Shown here piece by piece: positions 4,919 to 51,265 of a stretch of DNA of 64,000 nucleotides (within the stretch, counting starts at the first letter, position 1; each line of letters starts with the position of its first letter). The notes beneath the pieces are model-generated. The model saw nothing but the letters and a program-made list of their open reading frames with translations. It was not told where the DNA came from and ran no database searches. Location of the stretch: contig OX439048.1 in NCBI GenBank assembly GCA_949317995.1, positions 23,193,495 to 23,257,494 on the forward strand. Reading direction: 5' to 3'. The translations under genes and the position numbers were made by a program. The DNA comes from Acholoe squamosa. Taxonomy: Eukaryota; Annelida; Polychaeta; Phyllodocida; Polynoidae.

Positions 4919-7900
4919 TCGAAGGGGTTTAGTAAGAAGATTATGCCAGACTGGTGTCAGTACATGTATAGATAATAGTCTCTATTTGTAAGTAATTAGT
5001 CAATATTTCGCAAGTGCTGATTCCTGTGACCCTACAGGGTTGATAGATGGTTTTATGGTACCTACCCTGAGCCTTCTGTGCTTCAATGCACAACGCCCAA
5101 TTTTTATCACATGTGATGTGGATTTTGTGCCGGGAAAGGGAGATAGGGATGGGGCAGGAGTCTTCGATTTATTTTTTGACATTTTTGGCTTTTACATCAA
5201 TGAGTACTGCTCTCATTTGTGCACTGATTGATCACTTCAAGATGACTGATTTGAGCTCTGATCACTTCAAGGCTTGCGCAAAATCAGCCTCACAGCCTTC
5301 ATATTCAGTAGTTTGTTAACAACTTTGACCTACGGTGTGTCTCTAGCAATTCAGCAATGGTATGCAGTGTAATGGTAGAGCTATAGCTATAGTAATGGTG
5401 TGTCACATTGTAATGGTAATTTTGTGCATTATGGTGTAATGTAGTGTAGAATCAATCATGTGTAATACTGAATAGGAGTGATCAGTGCAATATGCCGTAA
5501 CATTAATGATGGGCTCACTCCTGCCGTTCTCTTGGTCACACCTCACTTAAATAAAGTAGCCATTCTATACCAGGGAATGTGAACTATTTTTTTTCTCAAA
5601 CCCAGCCTCTCTCGCCTGTTTAAAGTGATCACTCATTATCAAAGATGGATTAGTACTCTACTATGGTCCAATACGAGCTCTATTCAGTTTAGAAGAAGCA
5701 AAGATGTTTGCCCCCTCAAGTCAATGTTAATGTTATCTATAGATGATTGCCATCGACCTATAGTGACCGGGAATCAATATGAAACCTACATTATCTATTC
5801 CTGGGATGTAGATAAAATGAAATAAGCTCTAAAACAAAGAAATCTACCCCACGCACGGAGTATAACCCATATTCTCCATGTTACCAGTAGTGAAATAGCA
5901 TTTACTATACGGTATCAAAGCTGTGTCAGTGAGTTCTCTCCACCTGTTTCCTTACCTGGGCCTTCTGGTGACTGTACACCTTGATATGGGTGGCCTACAT
6001 TACCATGGTAACAACTAGGAAGTAGGCCTATTGATACCCCCCCCCCCACACACACACACGCAGACAGCGAGCAGAGTTACTCATGGGGTTTCCATGGTAA
6101 TGAGCTGTCCCAATGAGCCTGGGGCTGGAACCTATAGAGCCACCCAGCAAGAAACTACCCAGATACAGTGTACCTTTTTGCATATATTGAAGATACCCTT
6201 ACAGTTACACTTTTTAGCTTCAGCTGACATTTGAGAAGCTCACGTGCAATACGAATTTTTCAAATAGCATTACTATCTTACTGAACGTGTTGCTCTTTAT
6301 CACCCCCCTATCGCTCAAGTATTTCAGACGGTACTCTTGTCCCTCTGCCAATAAATCACAAAAAAAATCTGCCCTGTCTCGCTGTAGTGGTCTATAGAGC
6401 TACTCTTTGCTATAAAGGTGTTGCGGGGAGTGGGACACTTGGCAGGTGGTGGCCGAGTGGAGGAGACTGCAAAGTTTACATGGGGAGTAACCAGCAGGTT
6501 TGTGAAATTGATTGACATAGTTCATTACTTATATATAGATATGAATAATTTATATGTAGATAATGTTTGGCCATATGGAGCCTAAATGGGTAGTGTAATT
6601 AGCAAGACTGCGCTTTATGCAACCCAAGGTTATTTCTGCACAGACTGATATTGATTAGGTTAATTACTAATGCTGTCAAGCGTTAATAGCTGACGTACCA
6701 GAGGAGTTATTGAGTCTAGACCATCGTGTAGGAGCGTGGGCTACTCCCACATCATATCTATACATTATGGGTATAGGAGAACAGACACATAAAATTACTT
6801 TCTTTTGCCATTTACGGGTATATTATTTATTTATGGTACATTTATAGCGCATGTAGAGAGACGCCACCCTTCCCTGCATTTGATCAAATCTGTCAAAGTA
6901 CCTTCAGTGTATATAGGGAGATAGTTTTTACCCTCATACATAAGTTTTTTGCAATTTTTATAAAAGTAGTCTGGGTTTCCTAGAAATAATCAATAGTATC
7001 TCTGACAGTGTAAATGTTCCTTGTATTTACCTTCCTCCCTGCTGATAGGCATGTAGATAAGGCTGTGAATGTTGTTATCTGGATAGGTCAGGGCAAAGAG
7101 AACAGGTGTATGTTATACAGGACATGGTCAGACTATCTTTGCTAACCATAATATATTTTCATTTGAAATATAGAAAGTCACGTTGGACCTTTGCTATGAA
7201 TTAGGGGTATTTAAATCAACTCACGGATCTTGGTAAAAATTAGGATCCTCTTCAAAGTAGGTCAGCCAACTTGAAACAAGCATGTCTTTAGTCATATTTT
7301 CACACTTATGACATGTATATTTGTGTATGGTGGATGCGGTCAGTTGATGGGAAATTTGAATTTTAATTCGGTCAGTATTGTGAGAGGATCGGACGTTGGT
7401 TTGATAGCAATATTTGCCTATATCCTAGAGAGGCAGCAGCAACACCCCCCCCCCCCATACACACACACCCCATCCAACCATAACTCACCTACTCACACTG
7501 ACCCATGTATATAGCTCACATAGCCATTATCAGCTGGGGGCCGCCATTAGACCCCGACGGCACTATGACTAACACCTTCAGCCCCCGACTCCGCAGTATA
7601 TGCCAGGGATGCCTCCCATTGGTCAATAATACAATAGCCATGTGCCGTATACCTTTACATTTTACACCTGTTCTCCTCTATCGTAAGATCCAAGCCTCCA
7701 TCACCAGGTTGTCAAATATAATACAAGCCATAGAGGCATATAGCTCAGTCATCTATCTCCCGTGTATAACTGTACGTACAAATATTGACACCTTTGCAGT
7801 ACATGTACATGTATCATAATGCAGCACTTCCTGGTGGAATTACAGCTCACAATAACCTTAGATATCTCCATTTTTATGCAGGGGTGGGGGCGGGGGGGGG

Positions 7901-8253
7901 GTACACGTATGTGGTCCCGACTTGAACAATGCATTACTCGTGATGCATGTAAATGCCATGGTGTAAGGTTACAATATCTCCTTCTTCTCACAAAAGAGTA
8001 GCACCTTACAATACCTGCGTTCCAACCAGGTGACCTACCCTTGTACTGTGATGCTGTGGCCCTTATATCACCTTTGGACACGGCTATAGGTGTGTCATCC
8101 ATTTTCAGGAGAAGGTCAAACATGCAGATGGCAGATTTCTAGATAAGGTCATGTAACCCAAAAAAGAAAATCACTGTAGAACTAGCTTAAAGTTGTAAGC
8201 GATTCTAAAACCACACTGTATAGTATATAAAAACGGAGATTTGTGTCGGGTCT

Positions 8254-8266
8254 CTTAGTCTCTCTG

Positions 8267-8297
<31 letters not shown>

Positions 8298-8312
8298 GTC
8301 TCTCTCTCTAGC
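8254..8312. repeat. TCTG/TC microsatellite
   Basis: Imperfect run of TCTCTCTG and TCTG units ending in a TCTCTCTAGCAG sequence that looks like a splice acceptor. No open exon follows it. Confidence 0.8.
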
Positions 8313-11300
8313 AGTTCAAAATGTGTATCTCTTAACTAATGGTCTTTTCTCCTTTTAATTAATTAGGGTAGAACAACAGATGATCCATGTGCCCATGGAT
8401 CTCCAAAAAACTCTCTATTTTCATTTATGTCTAATTAATTTTTGAAAAAAGGGTTTAAAGATGAAAATTGAGTAATCTGTATCATATCAAACCCTGTATC
8501 CGGTTCCTGTGGTGTCATTGAAACTTTAGAAAACAATACAGACAGGCTGAGTCTGTGTTACTGATTAGCATTTTCTGAAGCTTCACTAAAAACATGTGTT
8601 TCTTATAACCTAGCTCCAATTTGGGTTCATGACACAAAACAGGGTCGCTATACTAGATTATTCTTATCCAATTGTCACAAATTATTGGGGCCTTTCTGTT
8701 TAACTGAATTAAAAACAGTGAATGTTTCTGGGCTTTAAAACAATCTAACATAGATCTCATGACTATGTTACCTGAATCGTGTTTCATTGTATTTGTGTTT
8801 GGCGTGTGGTTATTTTGGTGTAGACTGTGACGGTGGTGTTTGTCTGTGGTGCTGGAGCTCTGGGCCCCTGATATTATGGCATTGCCCACCAGTCGTCGTT
8901 CCTCTCTGGTGTTTAGGCTATCTGCTGAGTCTCAATAGTCCCTGTCTTGGTGAATATCATCACACATTGTATCTATAACCCAGATTTATTCATCATACGA
9001 CAACATACTTTTTATAACTTTGTTTTCTATTGTCAATGTTTTATTGTGTTGTTTTTCCCCCCTCTTTTTTAGTTTCTTAATAGTATGTAGGAAACAGTTG
9101 TCCTTGGTTGTTTAGGAGATATGAAGAACTGCTGAGTGTATCAAACACGAATACACTCCTTTGCTAAAATTCCAAATTCACCCGGTAAAGATTTAGATAG
9201 ATTTAGTATTTTCCCCTGGAAATTCAATCCCATACTACCCCCCTCCCCATCCACTCCACCCCAACACCCCACCCTCAGCTCCCATCCCAACTATTATCGC
9301 CTCACATTCAATCCAGATAAACAAAATACATTTAGCTTTAGCTCTGAAAACCTTTCGAAAGATTTAGATTTTAACGTTTACATTGGCCGGTGGTTTGTGC
9401 TCCAGTAAGACTTGACAGGTAAGAAATGGCTGGTAACTTCCCACTGGAGGAACACACAGGTAAATAGCCACCATCCCTACCCTAACACTCCACCCCACCC
9501 ACCTGCAGCTCCACCATCCCACTCGTATAACATGTAACTACCTAACTAAGTGGTCAGCTACACACTGGGCACTAGTGGTGGTACTGGAGAGGATCTATAG
9601 TCAGTGTATATCGAGAAATTTCCTATAAAGGCGAGAATTTTCTCTTCTTTTTCTTTGGGGCTGTTACCTGAGCTTCGATGAGTGCACCGCGGGTGTAAGG
9701 GGATAAGAAACATACATTTGTGTTTGCTATATTTCATAATATAGTGAGATCTGTAAAGATGGCATAACCTCTGATGCAATGGGCCTACATATTGCTAAAA
9801 TGGTTTTCTCTGATAGGGGAATCCAGGTTATCATGGATATTTTGAATAAGGTGGGATTAGTAAAGGGATGAGATAGGTTGATTAAACATGTCGTGTGATA
9901 CATCTTGTCAGGTGAGGTGCAGTGAGTTGAATGAATGAGGTGAGAGACTTCAGTCACCCCCTACATGTAGACCACCACTTGGGGCTGCATGCATGGGGCG
10001 TATGGCTGCATTAGCACCCACACTCACGCACACATCCACATGGGTATACATCTACATGACCAGTTCATCTCACACACTCACACACCCTGCATGTTAGTTA
10101 CCCAGACCACAGGAAGGGAACATGTACAGTCTACTGGACGTGGTACATGGTACAGGCAGGAGATGGGGATAGGGTTGTAGTAAGAACAACAGGACCATTG
10201 GATGTTGTGTCGGGTAGTGGACACATACATGTACACGTGGGAGGATAGCATCATACACTGAGTTACTGTGGTAAATGGGTGAAACTCCATCCTTCAGCCT
10301 CTGCTCTTCAACATAGGCTTATATAATGTATCCCTATGCTTAGTTTCATCTCCCCAGGCATAAAGGACTCTACCAGATCCCGCAAAACTTTACCCACACA
10401 TACCCTGCTGGATATTGCCTTCTACCAAAATGTTATGCAGAGGCCAATATTAGCCTACTAAATGGCTGTACGTGGATGGACCCACTGGACAGAGTGATAA
10501 GACCTAATCAGTTAAGGTAGGAGCAGCAGGATTAGGTGAGAGAGGCAGGAGGATTAGTGTTAATGTGTGTGGGACCACAAGGAGACTGCTGTAAGAGTAG
10601 GTGTGTCTAAGTAGGGTAAGAACAGCCTGCAGGTGTAAGCTTACCTGGGTAGTGCTTTTAGTGAATACGTCTGGAGTGAAATGGGCCTTCAATATTAGCA
10701 TGGAATCTCCCCCGTGCATGTAGACCTTAACTAGGTAAAGTGAGTATAGTATCCATTATATGGATGACATAGACTTGACATGGCATGGACTATAGAGTCC
10801 TTTCAGGTCAGTAGAATAGGCATTGATGTCATCATTCAGGCCGATGGCCTTCAATTACTTCTCGACCAAGATTTTTTTTTCAAATGCGTCGTTTTTTTCA
10901 TAGTGAATCTGAATATGAGAATATCCCAAATTATATAATTGTAAAAAGAAATAATCACTTTAGCTGGCCACAGTTCCCACAGGGACGTTATCATTTCCTT
11001 TATACTACTTACAGAGAGCCCTCCAATATACCCATGAGACTGGTATTCCATTTTAGAAGCAGAAATAGACAAATTGAAAGTGAGTAAATCTATTAAGGCT
11101 ACATCATGCCATAATTACAGGGTACTGTCCCAGGCTCTGTACTTTCCACGTCCAGGGACCCACCCCCTCTCCCACGTGGTCCATTATCCTTATTCCCAAG
11201 TGAAAACTTGGTAACTACACCTGTAATTATACACCTGTATTGGGCCACCTACATTAAGGCCCCTCAGGTGTCACTTAACTGACAAGGTAGGGCATGACCA

Positions 11301-19600: not shown

Positions 19601-20877
19601 TTAGACTACACACTGCTCTGTCCAATGTAGGCTACCATTCTATCAAATGTACCTCCTTTACTTAATAAGAACGCAGGAGAATCTGCTGAAGAAAATTGTA
19701 AAAAAAAAAAGAAAAATGGCTATAGGGAATTTAAGTATCTTTCGGCAGAATCCATACTAATGTACGTCATAAATGTTTCATCATAGATAGACACGCGCAC
19801 TAAGTCCACATACAGGGCGCATACACAGTCATGACTTTCCCAGGGAACTTTTTGTCCAATGCGGGGGGGGGGGGGGGTAAAAAGGTTTAACAATAAATAC
19901 AGAACTTGTGTCCACACCCATGAACCCTAGTGAGTGCATAGAGGGTTAAAAATAAAATAAAGAGGTGCTCAGTTTTGGTGTGTGTGTTTTATTTTTTTTT
20001 TTTTTCACACAAAAACTAATGACTGGTCAGGGACTTAACTACCTTCACTGTTACCAATCATCCTGTGGGAACGCTTACAGATGACGTCACTGTATCGGGC
20101 TTGGGGTGGAGGGATCATGAGTACCGTAGTACTGCATTTGTATGTGTAAATTCGCAACAACAAAAAAGGAAGAATGGGCGAATCTGAAACTTTTGAAAAT
20201 CAAAGGTGCAATTCGTTAGTGCATTGTTACTGTAGAATGGGCTTATAGGAAATGTAATTGGAAATTAGAATTGCTAAACATTTCAAAAATAGCTTCAACC
20301 CCATCATATCTCTCTATTTACTAAATGCTTTTATATATCATAAAGATATGGTATGATTTTATACACTCAAATATACTCAACCTTGCGATGAAAGGCTTAC
20401 CCCCGAGGGCTTTATACCCCTGTATCTGAGAAATTGAGAAGAAATCGGTACAATGGGTATGTTCCTTGTTATTAGGCGTGAGTGTACACGTTTAGAGGGT
20501 TGGTTGGTGAGGGTAGAGACCCCCACCGCCAACAACCCCCTACTCCTACTCTGGCCCTCCCTACATTGGTCTGACCTTGAATAACCTACACTTTTTTCCC
20601 TCACATAAAAACCAAAAATTGATCACAAGATGTGTGAGTGCAGGTCCCGTTTTGTGTGGGCCACCCTACTGGTGAAAAGGTCTCTAGGTGTATGTGTGAT
20701 GAACCGTTATTTGTATGTTTAAAAAGGGTGGGGCACTTCAGTATAAGCTAAGAGCACAGAATAATAAATATTTGAGGGCCACATTGTGTGTATTTGCATC
20801 ATGCTGATTTGCGACCAAGCTGCATGGATGCATCAGTGATGAACCTCCTTAGCAGGATTGCATGCCACCTTTCATTA

Positions 20878-20941
<64 letters not shown>

Positions 20942-23900
20942 CGTGTGTTACACATAAGGACCCGCTTTACGGGGACCAAAGGACCCACCTGGGTCCTCAT
21001 GTTGATGGAGTGGGTCCCTATGTTGACAACATAAGAACCCTGGGTCCTTATGTTGCCGAGATGGGTCCTTATGCTGCCGAGATGGGTCCATGTGTTGATG
21101 CAGCTTTTCTCTCTCAAAACTGGGTCCTTTGGCTGCCGGGTCACCGCAGGTAGGGAGGTTTTGGTAGTTGAGGGAGCTTTTTTCAGAAACACATAGGAGA
21201 GGGTGGGGGAGGGTTTTGAAGGGTTCAGGACCACAGGGAAAGGGTTCAAGAACATAGGGAAAGGGTCCAGGACCATGGGGAAAGGATCCAGGACCACCGG
21301 GAAAGGGTCCAGAACCACAGGGAAAGGGTTCAGGACCATAGGGAAAGGGTTCAGAAACATAGGGAAAGGGTTCAGGAACACTGGGAATGGGTCCAGGAAC
21401 ATAGGGAAAGGGTCCAGGACCACAGGGAAAGGGTCCAGGACCACTGGGAAAGGGTCCAGGACCACTGGGAAAGGGTTCAGGAATTTGGAATTTTTATTCT
21501 GTAAGATGAAGAATTTAGAATGAAATGTTTCATAATGTAGGGCCTACAGTATCTGAGAGATCTTCTTGCTTTTATTTCCAGGTCTCCCCCATTGGTGTCC
21601 AGCCTTCTCTACCTTTCCTTTTCCAAAGTTGGTGTTAGTTACCTTATATTGCTGTATTTCTTACAGGCACTAGGCAGATTACCAGCAGATAGTTTGGGAA
21701 TCTATAGAGCCTCATAGGAACTTCATTGATTGAATTGTATATATAAGGCTGGAAATTGGTTGACAGTAGACCTATGAACCTATATATAATGTGATAGGTC
21801 CCTAGATCAAAGTCTGTGCATTTTGATGGCTCCTTTTCGATGGCCATAACATAACATAGCTAACTTGAGAATAAATTTGTATCTTTTAGGTGGACCAAGA
21901 AGAAGAAGGCGGGTACAGATGTGTGGTTTGGGTCATGCCTGGAGGAGATGCCTAACAAGAAGGTGGCGCCACTGGTACCTGATGTGTTCGCATCCTACAC
22001 AGGCCCTGACCGGGGACTGGCAGCTGTGGCCAGCATGGAGAATGCTAATACACAACCTGCCCCCACAGAGGGTGCCACGAGTAAGTGCTGCAATACTATC
22101 ATAATTCATTGTGCCTTGCATATAAGGTGCGCCTTATATATAAGGTGCAACCCTAACTCGGGCCCATTCTAGCCAGTTGTAGATCCATAAAGGCAAAATA
22201 CCATACTTTGAGGATTTTTTTTACCAATGAAGAAATATGGAACACCTTAGCGACTACATTCAAATTAAAGCTCAAGATGAGGTCTTTCAGGAAAAAAATA
22301 TTGCAGTTCAATAACTTTGGGGTCACATGACTTTAATGGCTGCTGAATATAGGTCATTTGACTAAATTGGCTGACTTTGGCCACCAGCAGCGCCACCTGT
22401 ATGGTGTTTTCAGGTTAAATTCTCATACCAATACAAGCCCCACATCTACCCGAATATATGTTTCCCAAAGTTGCTGGAGATAATTTCTAATTTTGACGGA
22501 TTTTTGATTATTTAAAATTCTTGACAGCCCATTGATTTTTTCCTGTTTTCCAAGCCTCAGTGCATCAACACATAAGGGGTATGATTTTATGCTTGTTTGC
22601 TGGTCTCTCCAACTAGTAGTACATGTCTGATTAATTTAGGACCTGTAACAATAGCGGTTTTCTTATGACAGGCTTCTGAAAATGGCCCAGAAATAAGGGT
22701 TTGCTCCCCAGGGCTGACCCCCCTCCCACAACATGGGCCAAAACTCGGAGACTGTTTGGAATTTTAAGGAAATATTTGGGGAGAGTACTTCAGATACATG
22801 GACCAATCATATATATGAGTTAAAAGAAAATCCGAGATGGTCATCCAGGAAGATTGGTTGAACTGACACGGAATAGGCCACCAGTTAGTAGTATGTTGGA
22901 ATACAACGCCCAGGGGTGGGTTCAGAAAGGATGCTCTAGGTGGGAGGGGGGCACAGCCAGGGAAAACTGAACAAAAAAGGTGCCCTTTGTACCTCTAGCA
23001 TAATTTCAGGTTGCACCTTATATCCAGGATGCACCTTAAATGCTAGGTATTGTGGTAATACACAACATATCCCCATGGACATGTCATTATTCCCTTTGTC
23101 TCCGACAAAGGATGGAGATCTTTCTATAACATTTTATTATCAATATTTTTCTCTCTTTGAATGTTCCATTATGGTGTCACCATCCCAAAAGCCTTGTGGC
23201 CATCCAAAAAATCACAGGTCTTCCACCTTTGACCTGATATTAAAAATACCTAAAATTCTCACAGTGCTTAGCAACCTAGACCATAGTTTAGCTTTTGAAA
23301 TGGAGAAAAAAATAAGATCTAAGGGAATGAACACAATGAATCACATTATTCAAACATAGTTTGAATCTCTTTTGTTTTTAGTTATTTAAGTTCATCTCTT
23401 CATTAGATTATATAAGAACTTCATAGTGGTGCCATCTGGTGTAAACCATAGGAAGGTCTAATGCATGTAAATGGTATTAAAGAAACTGCTGTTCTTAGAC
23501 CACATCTTAGACCTGACCTGCCTTGTCTGAGGCCTGATATTATATTTTAATTGATGGTTGAAAATACACCAATCACATTTGGATGCAGAGACAAAGGCTA
23601 GAGCTTGCTCTACATCCTCGAACTCGTTATGATGAGATTTTAATGCCCCCCCCCCCCCTCCCCAGATAGAGAAGACAGGCCCCAAACGTCCACAGGGGGA
23701 CCGGGCCGGACAAATGACGTGACGCCATGTGATCCTAAATTTAAAAAGGTTTGCCCCAATAGTATTATAGCTGTGATAGTAGTACATGTATATGCAAATG
23801 AAGAATAGCCATAGGCTTGATATTGAGCGACCCAGGTATATGTAAGAGAGCAGCAAATGCCATAGTTGTTATCCTACTCAGATATCAAGGGGGGTATTGA

Positions 23901-26541
23901 AAATACATGTTTCTGCCATATACTAAGAACTGCTCATTTTTAACATTATAGCGGCTGCAGTTCCGTCCAGTCCTCAACAAAAGCCGGACATCGCGGGTGC
24001 CCGGGCATGGAACATCAAGAGTAGGAAGGCGTATGGCATCTGTATGTCACTGTACGACCAACACCCAATTAATGGAAAGATCTCAGGTACATTTCGACAT
24101 CATGCATGATCAGTTGATCCCTTGATTTTAGAGGAGTCACATAAAAGATTTTCATGTCAATGAGAAAAATGCACACTTATAGTAGATAGAGTAGCGATGT
24201 TGCTTGTATTTTGTATACCGAAAAATTAAGGGGTTTAAGATGATGACTATAAAGTATTTTAATTCCTCATGCATAAGGTTGTCCAGATGGGAAAATGAAT
24301 TGGTGAAACAGTACTGTTTGTGAAGATTGCATATCATAAGATAATACCATACAGCTGATTTGTCTACTTCCAGGTGACCCTATAGCAGATGCGTTTGGGA
24401 TCTGTGCCCGTAAAAACAATGCTTTGATGATCGTAGCTGATGGTGTGAACTGGGGAGAGAAGTCTAAAATAGCCGCTCGATGTGCCGTCTATGGGGTCAT
24501 GAAGTTTATGAATGAGAAACTCTTCTCATCAGGAAAACCACTCAAAAATACACAAGTAAGGAATGATATATACTCTATCAAGTATTGGGGTGAGCAACAC
24601 ACAGGTGTCTATGAGGACGCAAAGTATTAATGTCTTGGTATCAAGTAGTTTAGCTTGAATGCTTCACTAATGCCAAATGGAAATGCATAGGCAGACATGT
24701 TGGATTCTATGATTTTACAGTAGAATTATGAAAAACAAGAAATGTGAAGCACATGTAAAAGATATGAATAGCTGTTATGAACTGTATACCAATAGATGGG
24801 GACCTAGATAAGCTCCTCGAAAAATTGATGAAAAAATATGAAAATTACATGAGAAATGCCTAGAAATTGCCAAAAAATGTAAAAAGAATTCACAAAATAA
24901 AAATAAATAATTGCAGGATCGGCCCTGTTTTGCCAGGGTCAGTCGGGTAACTATAAAAAAAACCTTTTTTTTTAGGCCTAATATTGTATTCTACAATAAC
25001 ATTGGTGGATCTAGACAGGGGCTTGGGGCAATGAGTACCTGGGGATATATTTGCGGTTTAGGACCCCAAAATTTTCTCAAAAATAGGGGATGGGCCCCCT
25101 CATTATGGGCTACTCTCCCTCCTTTCCCAGATCCTCCATCCGGCACTCCCAGTAAAATCTGATATACCGAGTACTTTGAGTAGAATATTCCAATATTTTG
25201 CAAAGGACTGTTTGTATACTTTGGAATTTTAGAATAGGTTAGCTTCAGTTTTTATCCAATAGATTGAACACAGTTAAATCATATTTATCTTCTACCTTAA
25301 TCTCCCGCATAGAAGGCGCAGCTCGCGTAGAAGGCGCACCCCCAACTCAGAGAATGCCTTTTCACGTAGAAGGCGCACCCATAAAGGTTGAATTTTGTAA
25401 GATTAGTACTTTTCTATAACAAAAAAAAAACGCGTATAAGGCGCATCCCCAACTCAAGGCAATGTCCCTCCCACGTATAAGACCCAGCAGCATTTTGTTT
25501 GGCGTAGAAGACGCACCTTCTATGCGAGAGATTACGGTAACTAAATATCGGGTTAATAAAAATATCTTCTTCCTTCCATTCAAAACATGTTCTAACCAGT
25601 TTTATTTTAATCTCTTATGTCATCTACAGGAAGCGTTTCAGTTCCTACTAAAGTCCTTAGACGTGGCCCATCAGACGATCCTTGACCACGAAGGTGGACT
25701 TACGACTCTCTGTGCAGCTCTGATCCTACCTGCTAAAGACTCCAAACAGTTTATTGTGTGCATCGTCAATGTTGGCGATAGTTTGGCCTATGTATTTAGC
25801 AAACATCACGGTGTTCGGGAAATCACCACCGGCTCACATGACATAGAAGCTGAGCGAGACATTCGGGATGCAGGTGGTGCACTTGGCCCAGTCAACGGTC
25901 GCGACCCAGAACTTCATAACTTAACATGTTCAATGACATATGTGGATCCAGGGGATATCCTCTATCTAACCACAGATGGAATATCAGACAATTTCGACCC
26001 AGTTGTGACAAAGATCGCGATGGCAAAACGTCGCCATAGCGATCCAAACCTGGAGGATAGCAACCAGAATGATAGTGTCGGCATGAAAGACGGTAAACCC
26101 GAGATGAGGCCGCATGAGCGCCATCTGTACTCCGCTAAGGAGATGGAGCGAATCATTCATGAGTTTGAATTGAACACTGAGATGCCATGTTCAGCACAAG
26201 AACTATGTGGGGCTCTCTTACAACATGTGCTTAAACTCACCGACCCTAAGCGGAAGATACTCGAGAACCCAGATCTCTATGGCAAGAAGCTCCGGTCAAA
26301 GGAGCGGAAACGCCGCGATTCAGAGATTGTCTCAAAAATGTCAAAGGCCCCAGGGAAGTTGGATCATGCATCTATAGCGGCGTATGAGGTTGGGATATAT
26401 CATGGTAATGATGATGAGGATTATGAAGCTGAGTCGGAGGAGGAGGTTGTCGACAATATGCCGACCACCACCACCGCTGCCAATGGAGACTCATCATCAA
26501 CTTACGCTGTGAGAGAGATTTCTTTTGAATCTAATGTGTAG
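13467..26541 (+). CDS. Divergent PP2C-like phosphatase domain protein (CG9801-type), 5 exons
   Basis: Complete spliced gene. Exons are 13467-13606, 21890-22080, 23952-24086, 24374-24555 and 25630-26541, totalling 1560 nt or 519 residues. All introns are GT-AG and phases match (2, 1, 1, 0). The start ATG has A at -3 and is the first ATG after an in-frame TGA at 13440. PP2C core motifs are recognisable: a metal-binding DGVNWG (Asp178), GGLTT (238-242), NVGDS (263-267), TTDGISD (Asp332) and [11 protein letters not shown] (Asp461). The motif-1 acidic pair that precedes DGHGG in canonical PP2C is not evident in exon 3, and GG-TTLCA replaces the usual GSTA, so phosphatase activity is uncertain. The N-terminus is Lys-rich ([15 protein letters not shown]) and the C-terminus is acidic then Thr/Ser-rich. 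The DGVNWG signature matches what I recall of the Drosophila PP2C-like domain protein CG9801. Probably cytosolic or nuclear: no signal peptide or membrane segment is seen. Confidence 0.9.
16870..17385. repeat. 21/42-bp AT-rich satellite in head-to-head arrangement
   Basis: From about 16870 to 17110 units read CTGACAAATAGTGAGTAATT; from about 17285 to 17385 the same unit is reverse-complemented. The two arms flank about 175 bases of unrelated sequence. The unit is a 42-mer made of two related 21-bp halves. Confidence 0.7.
17388..17545. repeat. Direct repeat pair of 23 bp
   Basis: A 23-bp sequence beginning AACACAGGGATCCAGG occurs at 17388-17410 and again at 17523-17545, flanking about 110 bases. 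It could mark an insertion or duplication boundary. Confidence 0.6.
17540..17715. mobile_element. Possible pogo/Tigger-like terminal fragment
   Basis: CAGTAAAATTCCTTTACAAC directly follows a TA, and TTTACAACGAAT-type repeats recur in both orientations to about 17700. This resembles ends of Tigger/pogo non-autonomous elements. No matching right end with a TA duplication was identified. Confidence 0.4.
17741..17985. repeat. 80-bp tandem repeat, 3 copies
   Basis: Units begin AGGTAAGATGTGAGAGGTGT at 17741, 17821 and 17901. The third copy has small deletions. The minus-strand open frame through it is a repeat artefact. Confidence 0.85.
17999..19012 (-). repeat. Composite repeat with tRNA-derived (SINE-like) segment, copy A
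   Basis: This about 1-kb unit recurs in reverse orientation at 34915-35700. On the minus strand, roughly 18256-18184 resembles a tRNA: an A-box-like GGTATAGTGGACAGCG and a B-box region GGGGATCGATTCCCC with a complementary stem, closest by eye to tRNA-Asp/Glu. It also holds an inverted pair at about 18424-18461 and 18589-18627 and ends in a ~130-bp palindrome at 18884-19012. The tRNA-like part suggests a Pol III-derived SINE module inside a larger foldback element. Confidence 0.6.
19013..19460. repeat. 21/42-bp AT-rich satellite, second block
   Basis: Repeats of GTCAGCAATTAGTCAATATA and TAGTAATTACTCACCATTT. This is the reverse complement of the satellite at 16870-17110, so the two blocks bracket copy A of the composite repeat. 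Confidence 0.75.
20879..20940. repeat. GA microsatellite
   Basis: Nearly pure (GA)n of about 60 bases, followed by irregular GGGTCCTTATGTTG-type repeats to about 21130. Confidence 0.95.
21229..21482. repeat. 21-bp minisatellite, about 12 copies
   Basis: Units of the form AGGACCACAGGGAAAGGGTCC. A 21-bp period is seven codons, so both strands are open: TTGKGSR repeats on plus and VVLDPFP repeats on minus. It lies inside intron 1, so coding is not supported. Confidence 0.9.
21890..22080 (+). CDS. PP2C-like gene exon 2
   Basis: The acceptor is TTTTAG|G and the donor ACGA|GTAAGT. It begins [15 protein letters not shown] and encodes a lysine cluster and a linker up to residue 110. The first base completes the Thr codon from exon 1, and one base carries into exon 3. 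Confidence 0.85.
22112..23052. mobile_element. Inverted-repeat element in intron 2
   Basis: Left end (about 22112-22160) with GCATATAAGGTGCGCC and AAGGTGCAACC; right end (about 22965-23052) carries the reverse complement with some divergence. No transposase open frame lies between. Motif style resembles the 25-kb and 61-62-kb MITEs (TATAAGGCGCA-type), but membership of one family is an inference. Confidence 0.45.
23952..24086 (+). CDS. PP2C-like gene exon 3
   Basis: The acceptor is ACATTATAG|CG and the donor CTCAG|GTACAT. It encodes residues up to 155, including [20 protein letters not shown], which sits where canonical PP2C motif 1 should be. An AG nine bases further on would give an in-frame alternative acceptor. 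Confidence 0.8.
24374..24555 (+). CDS. PP2C-like gene exon 4 (DGVNWG motif)
   Basis: The acceptor is TACTTCCAG|GT and the donor CAA|GTAAGG. It contains [12 protein letters not shown], the metal-binding motif equivalent to YDGHGG, and ends in phase 0 after LKNTQ. Confidence 0.9.
25293..25540. mobile_element. Palindromic MITE in intron 4 (TAATCTCCCGC family)
   Basis: Ends TAATCTCCCGCATAGAAGG (left) and the complement of TAATCTCTCGCATAGAAGG (right). Between them are repeated TAGAAGGCGCACC/ TATAAGGCGCATCC motifs. About 248 bp, non-coding. Full-length relatives lie at 61203-61439 and 61792-62014. Confidence 0.75.
25630..26541 (+). CDS. PP2C-like gene exon 5 (last exon)
   Basis: The acceptor is CATCTACAG|GAA, and the exon is open to TAG at 26539-26541. 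It holds most of the PP2C core (GGLTT, NVGDS, TTDGISD, LDHAS), a basic Ser-containing segment ([10 protein letters not shown]-like region before KAPGKLD), then an acidic and Thr-rich tail. Confidence 0.9.
   Translation, partial: EAFQFLLKSLDVAHQTILDHEGGLTTLCAALILPAKDSKQFIVCIVNVGDSLAYVFSKHHGVREITTGSHDIEAERDIRDAGGALGPVNGRDPELHNLTCSMTYVDPGDILYLTTDGISDNFDPVVTKIAMAKRRHSDPNLEDSNQNDSVGMKDGKPEMRPHERHLYSAKEMERIIHEFELNTEMPCSAQELCGALLQHVLKLTDPKRKILENPDLYGKKLRSKERKRRDSEIVSKMSKAPGKLDHASIAAYEVGIYHGNDDEDYEAESEEEVVDNMPTTTTAANGDSSSTYAVREISFESNV

Positions 26542-44101: not shown

Positions 44102-44165
<64 letters not shown>
44102..44165. repeat. AT microsatellite
   Basis: Uninterrupted (AT)n of about 64 bases just left of the 22-bp satellite. 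Confidence 0.97.
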
Positions 44166-44168
<3 letters not shown>

Positions 44169-44223: not shown

Positions 44224-44259
44224 TGTTAGAGTGTAAACCCACGATCCTCGGTAAATGAG

Positions 44260-44268
44260 CGCGGGAAC
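44260..44268. repeat. 9-bp target duplication of nested element, left
   Basis: CGCGGGAAC here and CGCGGGCAC at 44986-44994 (one mismatch). The uninterrupted 3' LTR has a single CGCGGGAAC at this place. Confidence 0.85.
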
Positions 44269-44985
44269 GCAGGACGCAACTTCTTGACCTGGACTATGCC
44301 CCCGGGGCCTACAGACTGCCGCGTGGGAGTGATGCGAAAATTACGCGGACAGCAGTGGCTGAGGCGTGCCCTTTCCCACACTCCCCATGGCAAGTCTGGG
44401 AAAATGCCCCCAGGGCATCCATGGTAAGGATGATGCTCCCAGGACATGTAGGCCTATATAGGGTATTGGACTATGCCCCGGGGGCATTGTTTAGTACATG
44501 GATGCCCCCAGGGCATCGTCAATTTTTTTTATGCATGTATGATTATCCTTACTATGAATGCCCTGAGGGCATTTTCCCCCATTGTTCTCTGTACCATGCC
44601 CCTGGGGCATCCATAATATGGATGATGTGTGATGATGCCCCCCAGGGCATAGCATTTACTTCTATATTATAGACTGAATACTATTATGTCCCGGGGGCAT
44701 CACACACACCACAAATGCCCCTGGGGCATAGCCTTTATTCTATAATCTGAAATCTACAATGGCATGCCCTGGGGGCATCAGCAATTCCATCAATGCCCCC
44801 AAGGCATTTTCGTTACTCCTACACAAGAAACGACTAAAGTATGCCCCAGGGGCATCACTGGGCCGAGAATGCCCCCGGGGCCTTTCCTTATAAACTCACA
44901 CCAGAGTCACAATCTGACACAGCACGCGTGGAGCAGCGCGTGAATGCCCCGGGGGCATAGTCCGGGTCGAGAAGTTGCGTCCTGC
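44269..44985. mobile_element. 717-bp palindrome-array TIR element (Mutator-like MITE candidate) nested in the LTR
   Basis: Terminal inverted repeats begin GCAGGACGCAACTTCT and run about 40 bases with two mismatches. The 9-bp target duplication plus long TIR fit the Mutator/MULE superfamily. The interior carries 15 copies of ATGCCCCNGGGGCAT (N varies, some with one or two changes), starting at 44296, 44404, 44433, 44473, 44502, 44558, 44596, 44635, 44686, 44715, 44764, 44793, 44841, 44869 and 44944. No transposase frame. Absence from the 3' LTR shows it inserted after the copia element landed. Confidence 0.85.
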
Positions 44986-45187
44986 CGCGGGCACAGCGCT
45001 ACTGTGCCGCCCTCTGTGGTGAGAGAATGGAACTAACTTTGTTGTTTTAACTGGAGACAACTTAATAAAGTGGTACTTCCGGTCCTGCAGCGTGGGCCAC
45101 GAGGAGTCAGAGAATCCAAATGGAAGAAGTGTTTCTTGATTAATCCTTTCATTTGAAGAAGTAAATGCCCAAATTATCCTCCACAAA

Positions 45188-46171
45188 ATGGCTTCCACAC
45201 TAACAGGTCATGGACCCAGGCACAGGTTGATGTTTGATGGAGATGAGGGCAAGTATGAACTCTGGGAATGTAGATTTTTAGGCCACATGAGGCAAATGAA
45301 GTTACTGGATACAATTGCTGGGAATGGTATTGCAGCTGCAGATAAGAAGGCAGAGGCATATGCAGAAATTGTACAGTATTTGGATGATAGGAGCTTATCC
45401 CTTATCATGAGAGATGCTAAGGATGATGGCAGACAGGCTCTTAAAATTCTCAGAGACCATTACAAAGGCAAAAGTAAGCCCAGGGTTATTTCCCTTTACA
45501 CTGAACTGACATCATTGAGAAAAGGTACTGATGAGTGTATCACCGACTACGTCATCCGTGCGGAGACCGCTTCAAATGCGCTGAAAGAAGCAGGGGAAGA
45601 AGTGAGTGACAGTTTACTTGTTGCTATGGTTCTGAAAGGTCTTCCAGCTGAATATAATACTTTTGGAACTGTTACCACCCAAAAGGATGACCATAGGTTC
45701 AGTGACTTTAAAGTGGCACTTAGAAATTTTGAGGAGACGGAAAAGTGCCGGTCGAGTGACGCTGAGTTAAACTCGAGACAGGAGAATGTGATGAAAACTG
45801 TGTCCGATGCCGGGAAGAGCGACAACCCCAGCAAACCGAGTTATACATGTTATGCTTGCGGAAAACCAGGACACAGATCTTTTGAGTGTAAAAATAAAAA
45901 GCAGGGTAACAAGTGGTGCAATAACTGCAAAACCAAAACTCACTATACAAATCAGTGTAGGAAGAAGGACTCGGCTAAAGTAGCCAGCGACGATAGTTCG
46001 AAACCGGGTCATGCATTTGCGTTCAAGGTTAGCGTTGATTATGCGGATGTTTGTAATACAACTAGCCTGTATAGTTTATTGGTTGATTGTGGTGCAACTA
46101 CTCATATTGTTACCGAAAATCCAAATTTGTCAAATTTGATGAAAGTTTTGTTCCAGAGAAACACTACATAG
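45188..46171 (+). CDS. gag: Copia Gag (with start of protease), 327 codons
   Basis: Structural protein of the retrotransposon particle. The ATG lies 18 bases inside the 5' LTR. The N-terminal region is a copia-type Gag helical domain; two CCHC zinc knuckles follow at 45848-45889 (CYACGKPGHRSFEC) and 45917-45958 (CNNCKTKTHYTNQC), both CX2CX4HX4C. The frame then enters the protease active site VDCGAT (46082-46099) and terminates at 46171, while the rest of the protease continues in the -1 frame. The single gag-pol reading frame usual in this group is therefore broken, or is passed by ribosomal frameshifting at two A-AAT-TTG heptamers (46123-46129, 46132-46138). Confidence 0.93.
   Translation: MASTLTGHGPRHRLMFDGDEGKYELWECRFLGHMRQMKLLDTIAGNGIAAADKKAEAYAEIVQYLDDRSLSLIMRDAKDDGRQALKILRDHYKGKSKPRVISLYTELTSLRKGTDECITDYVIRAETASNALKEAGEEVSDSLLVAMVLKGLPAEYNTFGTVTTQKDDHRFSDFKVALRNFEETEKCRSSDAELNSRQENVMKTVSDAGKSDNPSKPSYTCYACGKPGHRSFECKNKKQGNKWCNNCKTKTHYTNQCRKKDSAKVASDDSSKPGHAFAFKVSVDYADVCNTTSLYSLLVDCGATTHIVTENPNLSNLMKVLFQRNTT
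45206..45220 (+). other. Primer-binding site (internal tRNA-iMet type)
   Basis: GGTCATGGACCCAGG follows the LTR directly. It closely resembles the Drosophila copia primer site, which pairs with the anticodon stem-loop of initiator tRNA-Met (half-tRNA priming). It overlaps Gag codons for GHGPR. Confidence 0.65.
46123..46138 (+). promoter_or_regulatory. Tandem -1 slippery heptamers at the gag-pol frame change
   Basis: AAATTTG occurs at 46123-46129 and again at 46132-46138, each in the zero frame as A-AAT-TTG (pattern X XXY YYZ). Shifting back one base at either places the ribosome in the pol frame, which has no ATG of its own here. G in the last position is not an efficient slippery site in known examples, and no strong downstream pseudoknot is obvious. 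Confidence 0.4.
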
Positions 46172-49104
46172 AGTTGGCGGATGGCAGCCGTACAAACGGT
46201 GTTGTGGCAGGTAGAGGTACAGCCAGTGTACAAATTCAGGACAGTACAGGTAGGCCACACAACATTCTTTTAGAGAATGCCCTCTATGTCCCATCCTATA
46301 AGCAGGATATATTTTCAGTGCAAGCGGCAACTGAAAAAGGCGCCAGTGTTAAATTCAGTCCCGACTCAGCTGAATTAAATGCGCCAGATGGTACTCGCTT
46401 TGAAATAGAGAAATATGGTAGATTATATTTTCTCAACAAAACTAGTAAATCTAGTGTTCGATCCCACCCAGTGGAAGAGTGGCATAAAATTCTTGGTCAC
46501 TGTAATGTAAGAGATTGCATGAAACTCGAGTCAGTAGTTGATGGTATGAAAATCAGCGATAAGAACAGTTTTGATTGTGATACCTGTGTAAAAGGTAAAA
46601 TGTCGCAGTTCAGAAATCATGATCCAGATAAACGGGCAGAGGCCCCACTTGATGTTGTTTACTGTGATCTCGCAGGCCCAATTGATCCTACAGCAAGAGA
46701 CGGTTTCAGGTATGCCTTATCTTTTGTAGATGACTATTCAGGGGTAAACATGGTTTATTTTCTGAAGCAGAAGAGCGACACCGTAACAGCTACAGAGAAG
46801 TTCCTTGCTGATTGTGCACCATATGGTAAGGTGAAGTGTATTCGTTCAGATAATGGGGGCGAATTTACTAGTGCAAGTTTCGAAGCTCTGTTGGTCAAAA
46901 ATCAGATTAAACATGAGAAAACAGCTCCCTATTCACCTCACCAAAATGGTACAGTAGAAAGATCGTGGCGCACAATATTTGATATGGCAAGATGTCTGTT
47001 ATTAGAAGCCAAATTACCTAAAGAAATGTGGACTTATGCTGTTATGTGTAGTGTATACATCAGAAACAGATGTTTCAATGACAGGGTCAATATGACACCA
47101 TTCGAAGCGCTCACAGGTAAGAAACCAGACTTGAGCGGTATGCATGTATTCGGTACTGTGTGTTATGCCTATGTACAGGAAAAGAAGAAGCTGGATGATC
47201 GCGGCGAGAAGGGTATCTTTGTAGGTTATGATAAGTGTAGCCCAGCATATCTTGTGTATATTCCCGAGCGTAACATTGTGCGTAGAGTAAGATGTGTGAA
47301 GTTCTTTGATAAGTTTGAGGAGGTAACAGACAGTTGTGATGAACCGGTGTATACCACACCGCAGGTAGAACCTGAACTTTACCCAGCTCCGGATGTAGCT
47401 GATGATGCTCCTCAGAATGGGGTTGGTGGTGAACCCGATCTAAACCTGCAGGGTAATAGGGACAATGCTAGGTATCCCCGCAGAGGACGTAACCCGCCTG
47501 GCTATTTGCAGGACTATGTAACCACCACTGTGGACTATTGTTATCGTATGTCACACATCCCGAACTCATATACTGATGCTATGAACTCGGACAATGCGCA
47601 AAAATGGCAGAACGCCATGGATGTAGAAATGGATGCGTTAATTGACAATGATACTTTTGAACTCACCACACTACCTGAGGGTAGATCTGCAGTGGGGGGT
47701 AGATGGGTGTATGCAATGAAAATGGGACAAAACGTTGATGAACAGTACAAGGCACGGTTTGTTGCCAAAGGATATTCTCAGGTCCCAAATATTGACTATC
47801 ATGAGACTTTTTCACCCACTGCCCGTATCACATCGATTCGCATGCTTATGCAGTTGGCCGTCCAAGAGGACATGGTTGTTCACCAGATGGATGTTAAGAC
47901 AGCCTATCTGAATGCGCCGATAGACTGTGAACTCTATATCGAACAACCAGAAGGCTATGAGGTGAAAGGTAAAAATGGTGAGAAATTGTATTGCAAGCTT
48001 AATAAATCTCTGTATGGTTTAAAGCAAAGTGGTAGGAACTGGAACAACATGTTGGACACTTACCTTGAGGAGGAAGGTTTCCAACAGTCTGAGACTGATT
48101 CATGTGTATATACTAAGTTTGAACAAAATTCCAAGACTGTTGTTGTAGTTTGGGTTGATGATATTATAATTGCAGCAAGCGATGAGAAGACACTCAACAC
48201 AGTCAAACAGTCTCTGTCCACCAGATTCAAAATGAAGGATCTTGGTAAGTTATCATGGTTCCTAGGTATTGAGTTCAAATGTGAAGATGGATCTATTGAA
48301 ATGAACCAAACCAAATATGTCGAGAAGTTGTTGAAAAGGTTCAAAATGGAAGATTGTAAACCCAGATCGACTCCTTGTGATGTAGGGTCCAATACTACAA
48401 AGGATGAGGATTCCGAAGAGCTAGCTGACGCTAAGCAGTATCGAGAAATAGTGGGAAGCCTCATCTATTGTATGTCAATCACAAGACCTGATCTGTGTTA
48501 TGTTGTAACAAAACTATCTCAACATATGGTGAATCCCACCAAAGCTGATCTTGGTAGAGCCAAGCAGGTACTACGGTATATCAGAGGTACACTTGATTAT
48601 GGACTAAGATTTCAGAAATCTGATGCTGAGTTAGAACTTAGTGGCTTTTGTGATGCCGATTGGGGTGCATCTGATGACAGAAAGAGCATAACTGGTTATG
48701 CATTCAGGTTGACCAACAATGGTCCACTCATTTCGTACAAAAGTAGAAAGCAACAGACAGTTGCACTTTCCACTTGTGAAGCTGAATATATGGCTCTGTC
48801 AGCTGCTACCCAAGAGGTAAAGTTCCTTAATCAACTTTTTACCGACATGACTGGTATTAAACAAACAGAGAGTGTTGTTTTGTATGGGGACAACCAAGGT
48901 GCATTGGCACTAGCTAAAAATCCTGTACATCATCAAAGGTCTAAGCATATTGATATCAGATATCATTTTGTGAGAAATGAAGTGCAGAATAATTCTCTCA
49001 AGCTAGAGTATGTACCCACAGCAGAAAACATTGCCGATGTTTTCACAAAGCCGGTTGCAAAACCCAGGCTTGTGAAGTTCCTGAGTGTACTAATGGGTAC
49101 ATAA
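46123..49104 (+). CDS. pol: Copia Pol: protease C-terminus, integrase, reverse transcriptase, RNase H
   Basis: This frame is open across the overlap with gag (from about 46087) to TAA at 49102-49104. It completes the protease, then carries the integrase zinc finger (His/His/Cys/Cys, ~46483-46605, ending FDCDTCVKGKM) and the D-D-E core (YCDLAGP at ~46660, RSDNGGEF at ~46840, HQNGTVERS at ~46940). Reverse transcriptase follows with KARFVAKGYSQ, QMDVKTAYLNA and the active-site box WVDD (48151-48162). RNase H has SGFCDADWG, TCEAEYMAL and a C-terminal ADVFTKP. The open frame, all catalytic residues and near-identical LTRs indicate a recently active element. The lack of a start codon means expression depends on frameshifting, or that this copy is inactivated by one indel. 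Confidence 0.93.
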   Translation, partial: KFVKFDESFVPEKHYIELADGSRTNGVVAGRGTASVQIQDSTGRPHNILLENALYVPSYKQDIFSVQAATEKGASVKFSPDSAELNAPDGTRFEIEKYGRLYFLNKTSKSSVRSHPVEEWHKILGHCNVRDCMKLESVVDGMKISDKNSFDCDTCVKGKMSQFRNHDPDKRAEAPLDVVYCDLAGPIDPTARDGFRYALSFVDDYSGVNMVYFLKQKSDTVTATEKFLADCAPYGKVKCIRSDNGGEFTSASFEALLVKNQIKHEKTAPYSPHQNGTVERSWRTIFDMARCLLLEAKLPKEMWTYAVMCSVYIRNRCFNDRVNMTPFEALTGKKPDLSGMHVFGTVCYAYVQEKKKLDDRGEKGIFVGYDKCSPAYLVYIPERNIVRRVRCVKFFDKFEEVTDSCDEPVYTTPQVEPELYPAPDVADDAPQNGVGGEPDLNLQGNRDNARYPRRGRNPPGYLQDYVTTTVDYCYRMSHIPNSYTDAMNSDNAQKWQNAMDVEMDALIDNDTFELTTLPEGRSAVGGRWVYAMKMGQNVDEQYKARFVAKGYSQVPNIDYHETFSPTARITSIRMLMQLAVQEDMVVHQMDVKTAYLNAPIDCELYIEQPEGYEVKGKNGEKLYCKLNKSLYGLKQSGRNWNNMLDTYLEEEGFQQSETDSCVYTKFEQNSKTVVVVWVDDIIIAASDEKTLNTVKQSLSTRFKMKDLGKLSWFLGIEFKCEDGSIEMNQTKYVEKLLKRFKMEDCKPRSTPCDVGSNTTKDEDSEELADAKQYREIVGSLIYCMSITRPDLCYVVTKLSQHMVNPTKADLGRAKQVLRYIRGTLDYGLRFQKSDAELELSGFCDADWGASDDRKSITGYAFRLTNNGPLISYKSRKQQTVALSTCEAEYMALSAATQEVKFLNQLFTDMTGIKQTESVVLYGDNQGALALAKNPVHHQRSKHIDIRYHFVRNEVQNNSLKLEYVPTAENIADVFTKPVAKPRLVKFLSVLMGT

Positions 49105-49218
49105 ATCTAAATCATCATGTATTGATAACCTGATGTATTATCATAAATATTGTATTGATCATATCTGATATATGTTATTCAAAGTTGTATACATAAGTAA
49201 TGTATCGATCGTAAGTTT

Positions 49219-49227
49219 AAGTGGGGG
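49219..49227 (+). other. Polypurine tract
   Basis: AAGTGGGGG directly before the 3' LTR, the usual plus-strand primer position (one pyrimidine interrupts it). Confidence 0.7.
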
Positions 49228-49483
49228 TGTTAGAGTGTAAACCCACGATCCTCGGTAAATGAGCGCGGGAACAGCGCTACTGTGCCACCCTCTGTGGTGA
49301 GAGAATGGAACTAACTTTGTTGTTTTAACTGGAGACAACTTAATAAAGTGGTACTTCCGGTCCTGCAGCGTGGGCCACGAGGAGTCAGAGAATCCAAATG
49401 GAAGAAGTGTTTCTTGATTAATCCTTTCATTTGAAGAAGTAAATGCCCAAATTATCCTCCACAAAATGGCTTCCACACTAACA
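49228..49483 (+). repeat. 3' LTR (256 bp)
   Basis: TGTTAG to CTAACA, intact, lacking the nested insertion. It differs from the 5' LTR by one base (A for G in GTGCCACCC) outside the insertion. AATAAA lies at 49342-49347. The ATGGCTTCC that starts Gag in the 5' copy is also present here. Confidence 0.95.
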
Positions 49484-50054: not shown

Positions 50055-50278
50055 CAGTGGTGTGAAATCCTAAAATCTATTTCCTCTGAAGCTACTTTGC
50101 AATGATTTCCAGTTTACATTTTCTCAATATATAAAGGTCATTTAAATAGTCAATTGGACACATGCTATCTTCTCTTGTACAGAGAGACTAAGAAATACCA
50201 GTGATACTCAAATTTATGATTTCGGATGACAACAGATCTTAACATTTGAAAATATGCTAAGGACCCCCCCCCCATATA

Positions 50279-51265
50279 CAGTAAACTCTCTCTATTGTGG
50301 TCACCATTCGTTCTTTCGAAAAGTGACCACATTGGCGAGGTGACCACATTAGAGAGAGTTCCTCTTGAGGGCATAGAGTTAGCAGGCAGAAACCAAGAAA
50401 GGTTATGTGTTGTTCTGTGTTCGTTTCTATTATGAGAATAAGCTATATCTGAAACTTGGTAAGTTAAATTTGGTTTAAAAAAATCCCTTATATTGAGATT
50501 TGGATGTATTAACAAAAATGCTTGATTTGGGATAAGGAAATGTGTTGCTGGCCCCTGGGACAAGAGTGGGTGCCAATGAAGGGACCAGAGGGGCAACCTG
50601 AGAAGTCTTCTACCTGCTATGGCATCCCTCAGATCTCCAACCCCAACCCCCCCCCCATACTCCCTTATAGACTTTGAGGGGACCAGAGGTGTGACCTGAG
50701 AAGTCCTAGAGTTGTTCCAGTCCACTGACCATATCCTAGAGTTGTTCCAATCCACTGACCATGCCCTAGAGCTATTCCAGTCCACTGAGCACACCCTAGA
50801 GTTGTTCCAGTCCACTGAGCACACCCTAGAGCTATTCCAGTCCACTGAGCACACCCTAGAGTTGTTCCAGTCCACTGAGCATGCCCTAGAATTGTTCTAG
50901 TCCAATGACCATGTCCTAGATTTTCCTTTTCTGGCTCCTCTCAAGTTTCCTCTCTGGATATGACCTTAGCTGTTGAATTATGTGTTACACAACCATTACC
51001 CACTCACTAAGAGCCACCCAATATCCCTTCAGGCTTCTATAAGGCTACAACTGAATTTGGGGTGACCACATTAGAGAGAGTAAATGTGACTTTTTGACTG
51101 GAAATTGGTGACCACAAGGAGAGGTGACCACATTAGAGAGGTGACCACATACCAGAGAGTTCATTACATTAGAACAAAGAGGGAAATAATTCGGTTCTTT
51201 CCAAAAGTGACCACATTGGCGAGCTGACCACATTAGAGAGGTGACCATAAGTAGAGAGTTGACTG
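50279..51265. mobile_element. pogo/Tigger-like element nested in the 1.3-kb element
   Basis: Ends CAGTAAACTCTCTCTATTG and the complement of CAGTCAACTCTCTACTTATG, flanked by TA on both sides (50277-50278, 51266-51267). Subterminal GTGACCACATT motifs repeat near both ends. The interior lacks a transposase but contains a 30-bp minisatellite. Confidence 0.7.
50711..50920. repeat. 30-bp minisatellite, 7 copies
   Basis: Unit GTTGTTCCAGTCCACTGAGC plus ACACCCTAGA. A 30-bp period equals ten codons, which keeps frames open on both strands. These frames are artefacts. Confidence 0.95.

Follow-up and report, generated by a model that had tools for sequence, protein, structure and literature searches.

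A young non-autonomous transposon family in Acholoe squamosa with palindrome arrays and patterned changes in its target site duplications

The stretch of DNA analysed here (the window) comprises 64,000 nucleotides of contig C14 in the 1.48 Gb genome of Acholoe squamosa. It contains a copia retrotransposon at 44224-49483, the gag and pol frames of which are long and open and encode gag, integrase and reverse transcriptase domains. The 5′ long terminal repeat (LTR) of this element is split by a second, much shorter element bounded by terminal inverted repeats (TIRs) and flanked by a target site duplication (TSD). The principal features are as follows.

44224..45205, + strand: copia 5′ LTR, split by the transposon (direct repeats, LTR alignment)
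44260..44268, + strand: left 9-bp target site copy CGCGGGAAC, unedited and identical to the 3′ LTR sequence
44269..44985, + strand: non-autonomous TIR transposon, 717 bp (genome search, repeats, family consensus)
44269..44313, + strand: left TIR, starting with GCAGGACGCAACTTCT; terminal palindrome at 44296-44310
44404..44447, + strand: palindrome pair at 44404 and 44433, starts 29 apart (motif scan)
44473..44516, + strand: palindrome pair at 44473 (exact) and 44502, starts 29 apart (motif scan)
44558..44572, + strand: palindrome ATGCCCTGAGGGCAT (motif scan)
44596..44610, + strand: exact palindrome (motif scan)
44635..44650, + strand: palindrome with a 1-base insertion, intact in the family consensus (direct reading)
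44686..44729, + strand: palindrome pair at 44686 and 44715 (exact), starts 29 apart (motif scan)
44764..44807, + strand: palindrome pair at 44764 and 44793, starts 29 apart (motif scan)
44841..44883, + strand: palindrome pair at 44841 (exact) and 44869, starts 28 apart (motif scan)
44941..44985, − strand: right TIR; terminal palindrome at 44944-44958
44986..44994, + strand: right 9-bp target site copy CGCGGGCAC, in which the seventh base has changed from A to C
49228..49483, + strand: copia 3′ LTR, unsplit and showing the empty site (direct repeats, LTR alignment)

The preliminary description of this locus had recognised a complete mobile element inserted into a copia LTR, with long inverted repeats, a 9-bp duplication and 15 palindromes within 717 bp, and each of these points was borne out. 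The TIRs are 45 nt each with 91% complementarity, and the flanking copies CGCGGGAAC and CGCGGGCAC differ by one mismatch. As the empty site in the 3′ LTR reads CGCGGGAAC, the right copy is the altered one. With up to three mismatches, ATGCCCCNGGGGCAT occurs at 14 sites in 44269-44985 (five of them exact) and at two elsewhere in the window, where the whole-window chance expectation was 1.84 sites and none of 100 shuffles reached 16; the copy with the 1-base insertion is the fifteenth. The window-wide list of open frames contained none of at least 150 aa within 44269-44985, and hence no transposase gene. The element is thus a non-autonomous TIR DNA transposon with the structure of a MITE.

Several other features of the window were recorded. 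A long AT microsatellite (44102-44166) lies just upstream of the copia LTR. Open frames of degenerate short repeats (e.g., MDWNNSRVCSV...) on the − strand at 20875-21465 and 50165-50875 are probably minisatellites, and a 359-aa frame at 25462-26541 on the + strand, with a weak, sub-cut-off match to SpoIIE-type (PP2C-like) domains, possibly represents exons of a host gene.

A genome search with the window element returned 640 candidates, and the 40 that were scored were all near-full copies: 39 full or nearly full, and one spanning bases 4-695 of the 726-base query. Thirty copies were read for lengths, flanks and consensus. Twenty-eight measure 738–740 bp and one 742 bp, while the window copy, at 717 bp, is 22 bp net shorter than the 739-bp consensus. 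Once oriented, 29 copies diverge from that consensus by 0–0.7% and the window copy by 1.1%. The consensus carries 15 palindromes. Twelve of the 30 copies have identical 9-bp flanks, and in 26 the flanks agree at 7 or more of the 9 positions, so that the genome-wide check proposed in the preliminary description, for further copies with flanking duplications, gave a positive result. Dispersed copies with common TIRs and a constant TSD length, as required of a MITE family, were both found. The family is very young. The recent mobility previously deduced from the absence of the element in the 3′ LTR is supported. Once the insert and a single TSD copy are set aside, the two copia LTRs differ at only 1 of 256 positions.

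The window family is part of a large and diverse group with GCAGGAYRCAACTT-like termini, 9-bp duplications and arrays of the palindrome ATGCCCYNRGGGCAT. The exact palindrome occurs 2117 times genome-wide and the TIR pattern GCAGGAYRCAACTT-N9-GWCTATGCCC 1052 times, with no occurrence of the reversed control in either case. Among 100 listed matches to the TIR pattern, 38 pairs faced each other at a distance of up to 10 kb, with a median of 1140 bp; no pair had the opposite order, and 24 ends were unpaired. The group was sampled through 16 regions around the first listed exact palindromes on C1, 12 of which hold a two-ended element of 876–2933 bp; L039, L042 and L047 have a single recognised end and L035 has none. 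All 12 two-ended elements start with GCAGGAYRCAACTT at both ends, apart from one base at one end in L041, L049 and L045. Their 9-bp flanks are identical in eight cases and differ by one base in three and by three bases in one. L050, from this sample, has the same TIR as the window element.

Across 16 elements or element pieces, 301 palindrome sites were found with up to three arm mismatches; block-shuffled sequence gave 12 on average. At the same threshold the 96,741 bases of flanking sequence hold 45 sites, some of which are probably fragments of the group. In 13 of 13 two-ended elements a palindrome begins at base 28 from each end. The centre of the motif (position 8) is free, and C- and G-centred palindromes are the same motif on opposite strands; A and T centres may be explained, at least partly, by CpG decay. 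Position 7 is C in 148 sites and T in 146 (other bases, 7), and position 9 is G in 151 and A in 140 (other bases, 10). The near absence of transversions at these two positions suggests recognition of a pyrimidine and a purine, respectively, rather than neutral drift. In L044 (3617-3895) the palindrome is open in one frame and codes for M-P-x-G-H, so that transcripts could hold MPxGH repeats; such repeated frames are probably meaningless.

The spacing of the palindromes, earlier given as roughly 25–70 bases, turned out to be broader, ranging from 28 to 108 in the family consensus, with five spacings of 28 or 29. Group-wide, a spacing of exactly 29 accounts for 53 of 285 consecutive intervals, and when all pairs are considered, 79 ranks second in frequency among the distances. 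Tandem units of 76–81 bp with two palindromes each are present in L050, L053 and L054, indicating that duplication built the arrays at least in part. The preliminary description had favoured selection on the arms over simple tandem duplication. Its first half is upheld by the constraint on the arms, while the tandem units show that duplication contributed as well. In colinear alignments of diverged elements, with the TIR ends excluded, identity was 95.4% in the arms, 77.7% at the centres and 84.8% in the rest, and the arms scored higher than the rest in every one of 46 comparisons; these are non-independent and cover both directions. Among the 30 young copies, non-CpG differences were found at 10 of 5400 arm positions versus 38 of 14,256 positions outside (p = 0.34). 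A McDonald–Kreitman-like contrast of differences between and within families gave p = 2e-4, a rough value based on rounded counts and non-independent alignments. Constraint on the arms is thus evident across families and not among the copies of the young family after insertion. Constraint across successful elements that is absent once an element has inserted is the pattern expected of a site required for mobility.

The preliminary description had offered either arm pairing or a protein-binding site as the object of this selection, and a protein site proved the better fit. Were the arrays kept as hairpin or cruciform DNA or RNA, and not as double-stranded protein sites, the arms would be expected to change together; arm changes were instead one-sided in 239 cases, with only 2 symmetric and 4 asymmetric doubles, and 93 of the 236 sites whose arms carry no more than one mismatch combine C7 with A9 or T7 with G9. 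The window element does fold far above shuffled sequence (z −21, 20 shuffles), although strong folding is a consequence of the palindromes themselves, and T7 co-occurs with A9 somewhat above chance, a weak association (p = 0.011). On these two observations symmetry or pairing may still play some part, but we regard maintenance as folded nucleic acid as highly improbable.

The mismatches between TSD copies form a second pattern, one which the preliminary description did not treat as part of any process. TSDs were compared in 59 elements with both flanks, L035, L039, L042 and L047 being excluded for want of two clear ends; L023 and L030 have a flank in common and possibly represent a single insertion counted twice. 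The two copies were identical in 25 pairs, differed by 1–4 mismatches in 30 and by 6–7 in four (L009, L028, L066 and L074), the last being counted among the 59 pairs but excluded from the 48 scored mismatches. Two mismatches at the middle TSD base (t5) were likewise unscored. Since the copies are mostly 0.3% diverged, these mismatches far exceed what mutation would be expected to produce.

Edits in the left TSD turn its first four bases toward CTGC (CTGC-N5-GCAGGA), and edits in the right TSD turn its last four bases toward GCAG (TCCTGC-N5-GCAG). Under this assignment 42 of the 48 scored mismatches take the base expected from the reverse complement of the TIR end, compared to 1 of 48 under the reverse assignment, in which the template base stands in the opposite TSD copy; binomial testing assumes that mismatches and ends are independent. 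The A to C change in the right TSD of the window element fits the same template, placing GC five bases outside the TIR. The template leaves unexplained 6 of the 48 scored mismatches, the two at t5 and the four elements with 6–7 mismatches. With these four elements excluded, 27 of 110 junctions are edited (17 left, 10 right), and in all 27 the edit runs contiguously from the sixth base outward for 1–4 bases. Eight runs extend to the ninth base, and in only one of these does the following base match the template, so the edit appears to halt at the edge of the duplication. Genome-wide, GC stands at bases 6–7 outside 69 of 229 ends with the exact window TIR; in the opposite TSD copies of the sample it does so in 2 of 118. 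The edits are spread unevenly across the group, affecting 24 of 44 elements with the window TIR versus 1 of 11 with other TIRs. Among the young copies 15 of 30 are edited, and these show no clear excess of age over the 15 without an edit (p = 0.08).

An edit of this kind would arise during or soon after insertion, when the 9-base flank is single-stranded. It could be made by fold-back, in which the TIR end is copied inverted across a 5-base loop within the open 9-base gap, or by joining, in which the opposite end is transiently joined to the flank five bases out, leaving a 5-base spacer, much like the figure-eight formed by IS256-family elements. Fold-back templated insertions at breaks have been described in yeast (PMC11724301). 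The two routes predict identical sequence. That the edit halts at the TSD edge points to an event in the still open gap. In L062 the element's own end reads ACAG and the flank CTGC, which favours the far end as template, unless the own end mutated later.

The most probable binder of the palindromes would be a protein dimer that acts in transposition, either the missing transposase itself or a partner protein of the autonomous element. The fixed position of a palindrome at the element ends favours such a protein, and elements rich in sites, grown at least partly through duplication of the two-site unit of about 79 bp, would then be the ones best mobilised in trans. Judged from sequence, a transposition protein ranks first as the putative binder and the host transcription factor AP-2 second. 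The longer AP-2 motif is TGCCCYNRGGGCA, a string that, as text, had no occurrence in the literature searched. If the palindromes were host AP-2 sites, elements with many of them would owe their spread to chromatin opening or expression brought about by AP-2 in germ cells, and not to transposase binding. The core CCCYNRGGG can be compared with the AP-2alpha consensus SCCYSRGGS (PMC5392957): the full consensus fits 160 of 301 sites, rising to 235 of 301 with a free centre. Overlapping SCCYNRGGS matches number 24 in the window element and 12 in the other 63,283 bases, and the genome has a single AP-2 locus (five exon matches, C2). However, a palindrome fixed at base 28 in the two TIRs of each two-ended element is what one would predict for a site used in transposition, and less so for an enhancer. 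The outer ATG/CAT lies beyond what an AP-2 consensus of nine bases requires and is conserved as well as the core, and any GC-rich odd palindrome is fairly likely to fit some factor. We therefore consider AP-2 binding unlikely as the reason for the arrays; if AP-2 does bind, the elements would be ready-made clusters of AP-2 sites scattered across the genome.

Taken jointly, the best explanation is a young non-autonomous TIR family in which the palindrome is the site of a transposition protein dimer and the TSDs undergo templated editing around the time of insertion, a reading to which we assign a probability of roughly 0.6. A more far-reaching version, in which the edits would be fossil scars of asymmetric strand transfer by a eukaryotic TIR transposon and the palindrome array a loading platform for its transposase, is rather doubtful. 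Scars with a 5-base spacer, which an IS256-like copy-out route or fold-back would leave, mark 27 of the 110 junctions, on the left in 17 cases and on the right in 10.

The transposition protein that this preferred reading calls for would be encoded by an autonomous partner. Mutator-like elements (MULEs) have TSDs of 8–11 bp, and the duplications here, at about 9 bp, agree with this; membership in the Mutator-like group is possible on the basis of TSD length and TIRs only. A partner of this kind, e.g., of the Phantom/Foldback type, is also suggested by the 36 MULE matches in the genome and by the likeness of 9-bp TSDs and long, internally repetitive ends to Tm1 (PMC3169594) and to Muta1 and Muta5 (PMC5225508). 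It is doubtful nonetheless, although possible: of three MULE neighbourhoods read among the 36, two have neither palindrome nor TIR, in the third a MULE-SWIM gene lies outside the palindrome element, and none of the matches falls inside three giant TIR-bounded spans described below. The MULE near a palindrome element on C7 was rejected as a candidate, as the 2144-bp element there has its own TIRs and TSD, with the MULE-SWIM gene outside. In this copy, L053, the palindrome element (1045-3188) adjoins the MULE-SWIM gene (5197-9058), which bears introns, and C17 carries the same arrangement at the same distance.

Alternatively, the window family could have arisen by deletion from a giant transposon of the KDZ type (Kyakuja-Dileera-Zisupton). 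Of the 14 KDZ matches, two (C11:49590946 and C6:64025122), equal in score and each with an open frame of 551 aa, are located inward of 82%-identical copies of the L050 right end (C11:49576160 and C6:64006565), at distances of 14.8 and 18.6 kb, and facing window-type TIRs elsewhere bound spans of 25.4, 26.3 and 33.4 kb. Against this, the far ends of the C11 and C6 loci are not among the 40 scored matches, and the arrangement resembles the MULE association on C7 and C17, which in the C7 copy proved to be a separate element beside the gene. Furthermore, no KDZ match falls inside the three giant spans, each of which could also consist of two elements lacking one end apiece, and none of the listed exact TIRs encloses the four KDZ places on C1. 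A KDZ-type partner is quite unlikely, though still a lead. The spans themselves (C3:46911907-46938165, C5:27006272-27031684 and C15:61797275-61830731) may represent giant or autonomous elements, or else truncated elements in pairs.

A third candidate came from L054, a 5877-bp copy of a palindrome element with a DUF3504 tyrosine recombinase as its only long gene. It was rejected as the mobiliser, for a second copy elsewhere, 97% identical, has nothing but the inner 3.0 kb (L054:2154-5177) in common with it, which shows that the recombinase belongs to a nested Crypton and is not integral to the palindrome element. This Crypton-like element is present at C4:87087993-87091016 (in L054) and in L057. 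With the encoded protein as query, 112 matches were obtained genome-wide (103 scored of 919 candidates), several groups of which have near-equal scores and open frames. No transposase for the palindrome elements was thus identified among the 36 MULE matches (three neighbourhoods read), the 14 KDZ matches and the L054 recombinase.

To our knowledge, it is unusual for a TIR transposon to carry a single symmetric site throughout the bodies of many diverged families, or to have TSDs edited predictably by its own end sequence. Within the library and terms searched, titles and abstracts described no similar palindrome-array transposon and no templated TSD edits. A parallel is offered by the maize En/Spm and Ac/Ds elements, near the ends of which short motifs are repeated and serve as binding sites for a protein that the element encodes. 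Their motifs are subterminal and are not full palindromes, whereas here symmetric sites fill the element.

Among animal elements, Tm1, of the Mutator/Foldback (Phantom) family in root-knot nematodes, likewise has gene-less, MITE-like members, short repeated motifs in its TIRs and mostly 9-bp TSDs (PMC3169594). The Tm1 repeat is a tandem motif of 13–15 bp within the TIRs, whereas here a symmetric 15-bp site is dispersed through the body, and Tm1 has a known Phantom-like transposase while none was found here. The Aedes aegypti MULEs Muta1 and Muta5 have TSDs of 8 or 9 bp, similar to those reported here, and Muta5 has subterminal tandem repeats; the available portions of that account (PMC5225508) describe neither a palindrome array nor a templated TSD change.

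For the edits, the nearest precedents are of two kinds. In bacterial IS256-family elements such as ISCth4, which produce 8-bp TSDs, one end is joined to the flank of the other across a short spacer, of 6–8 bp in vitro and 5–6 bp for hybrid promoters (PMC7780238). Either end can act as donor there, much as scars with a 5-base spacer occur on either side here; in the IS256 family, however, the joining has been shown biochemically, whereas here there are the scars alone and fold-back would leave the same sequence. The fold-back insertions of yeast (PMC11724301) also involve short inverted copies made by fold-back with microhomology, but those are insertions of 5–34 bp at double-strand breaks, while here 1–4 bases are replaced and the length is unchanged.

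What this analysis adds to the earlier reading of the locus is a palindrome platform common to the whole group and templated edits in the TSDs. These edits also caution against putting imperfect TSDs down to age or error. The edits would allow cut-and-paste transposition with fold-back repair and copy-out with a spacer to be tested against each other from sequence alone. If they are scars of strand transfer, the chemistry of a family without a known transposase could be read from its genomic flanks.
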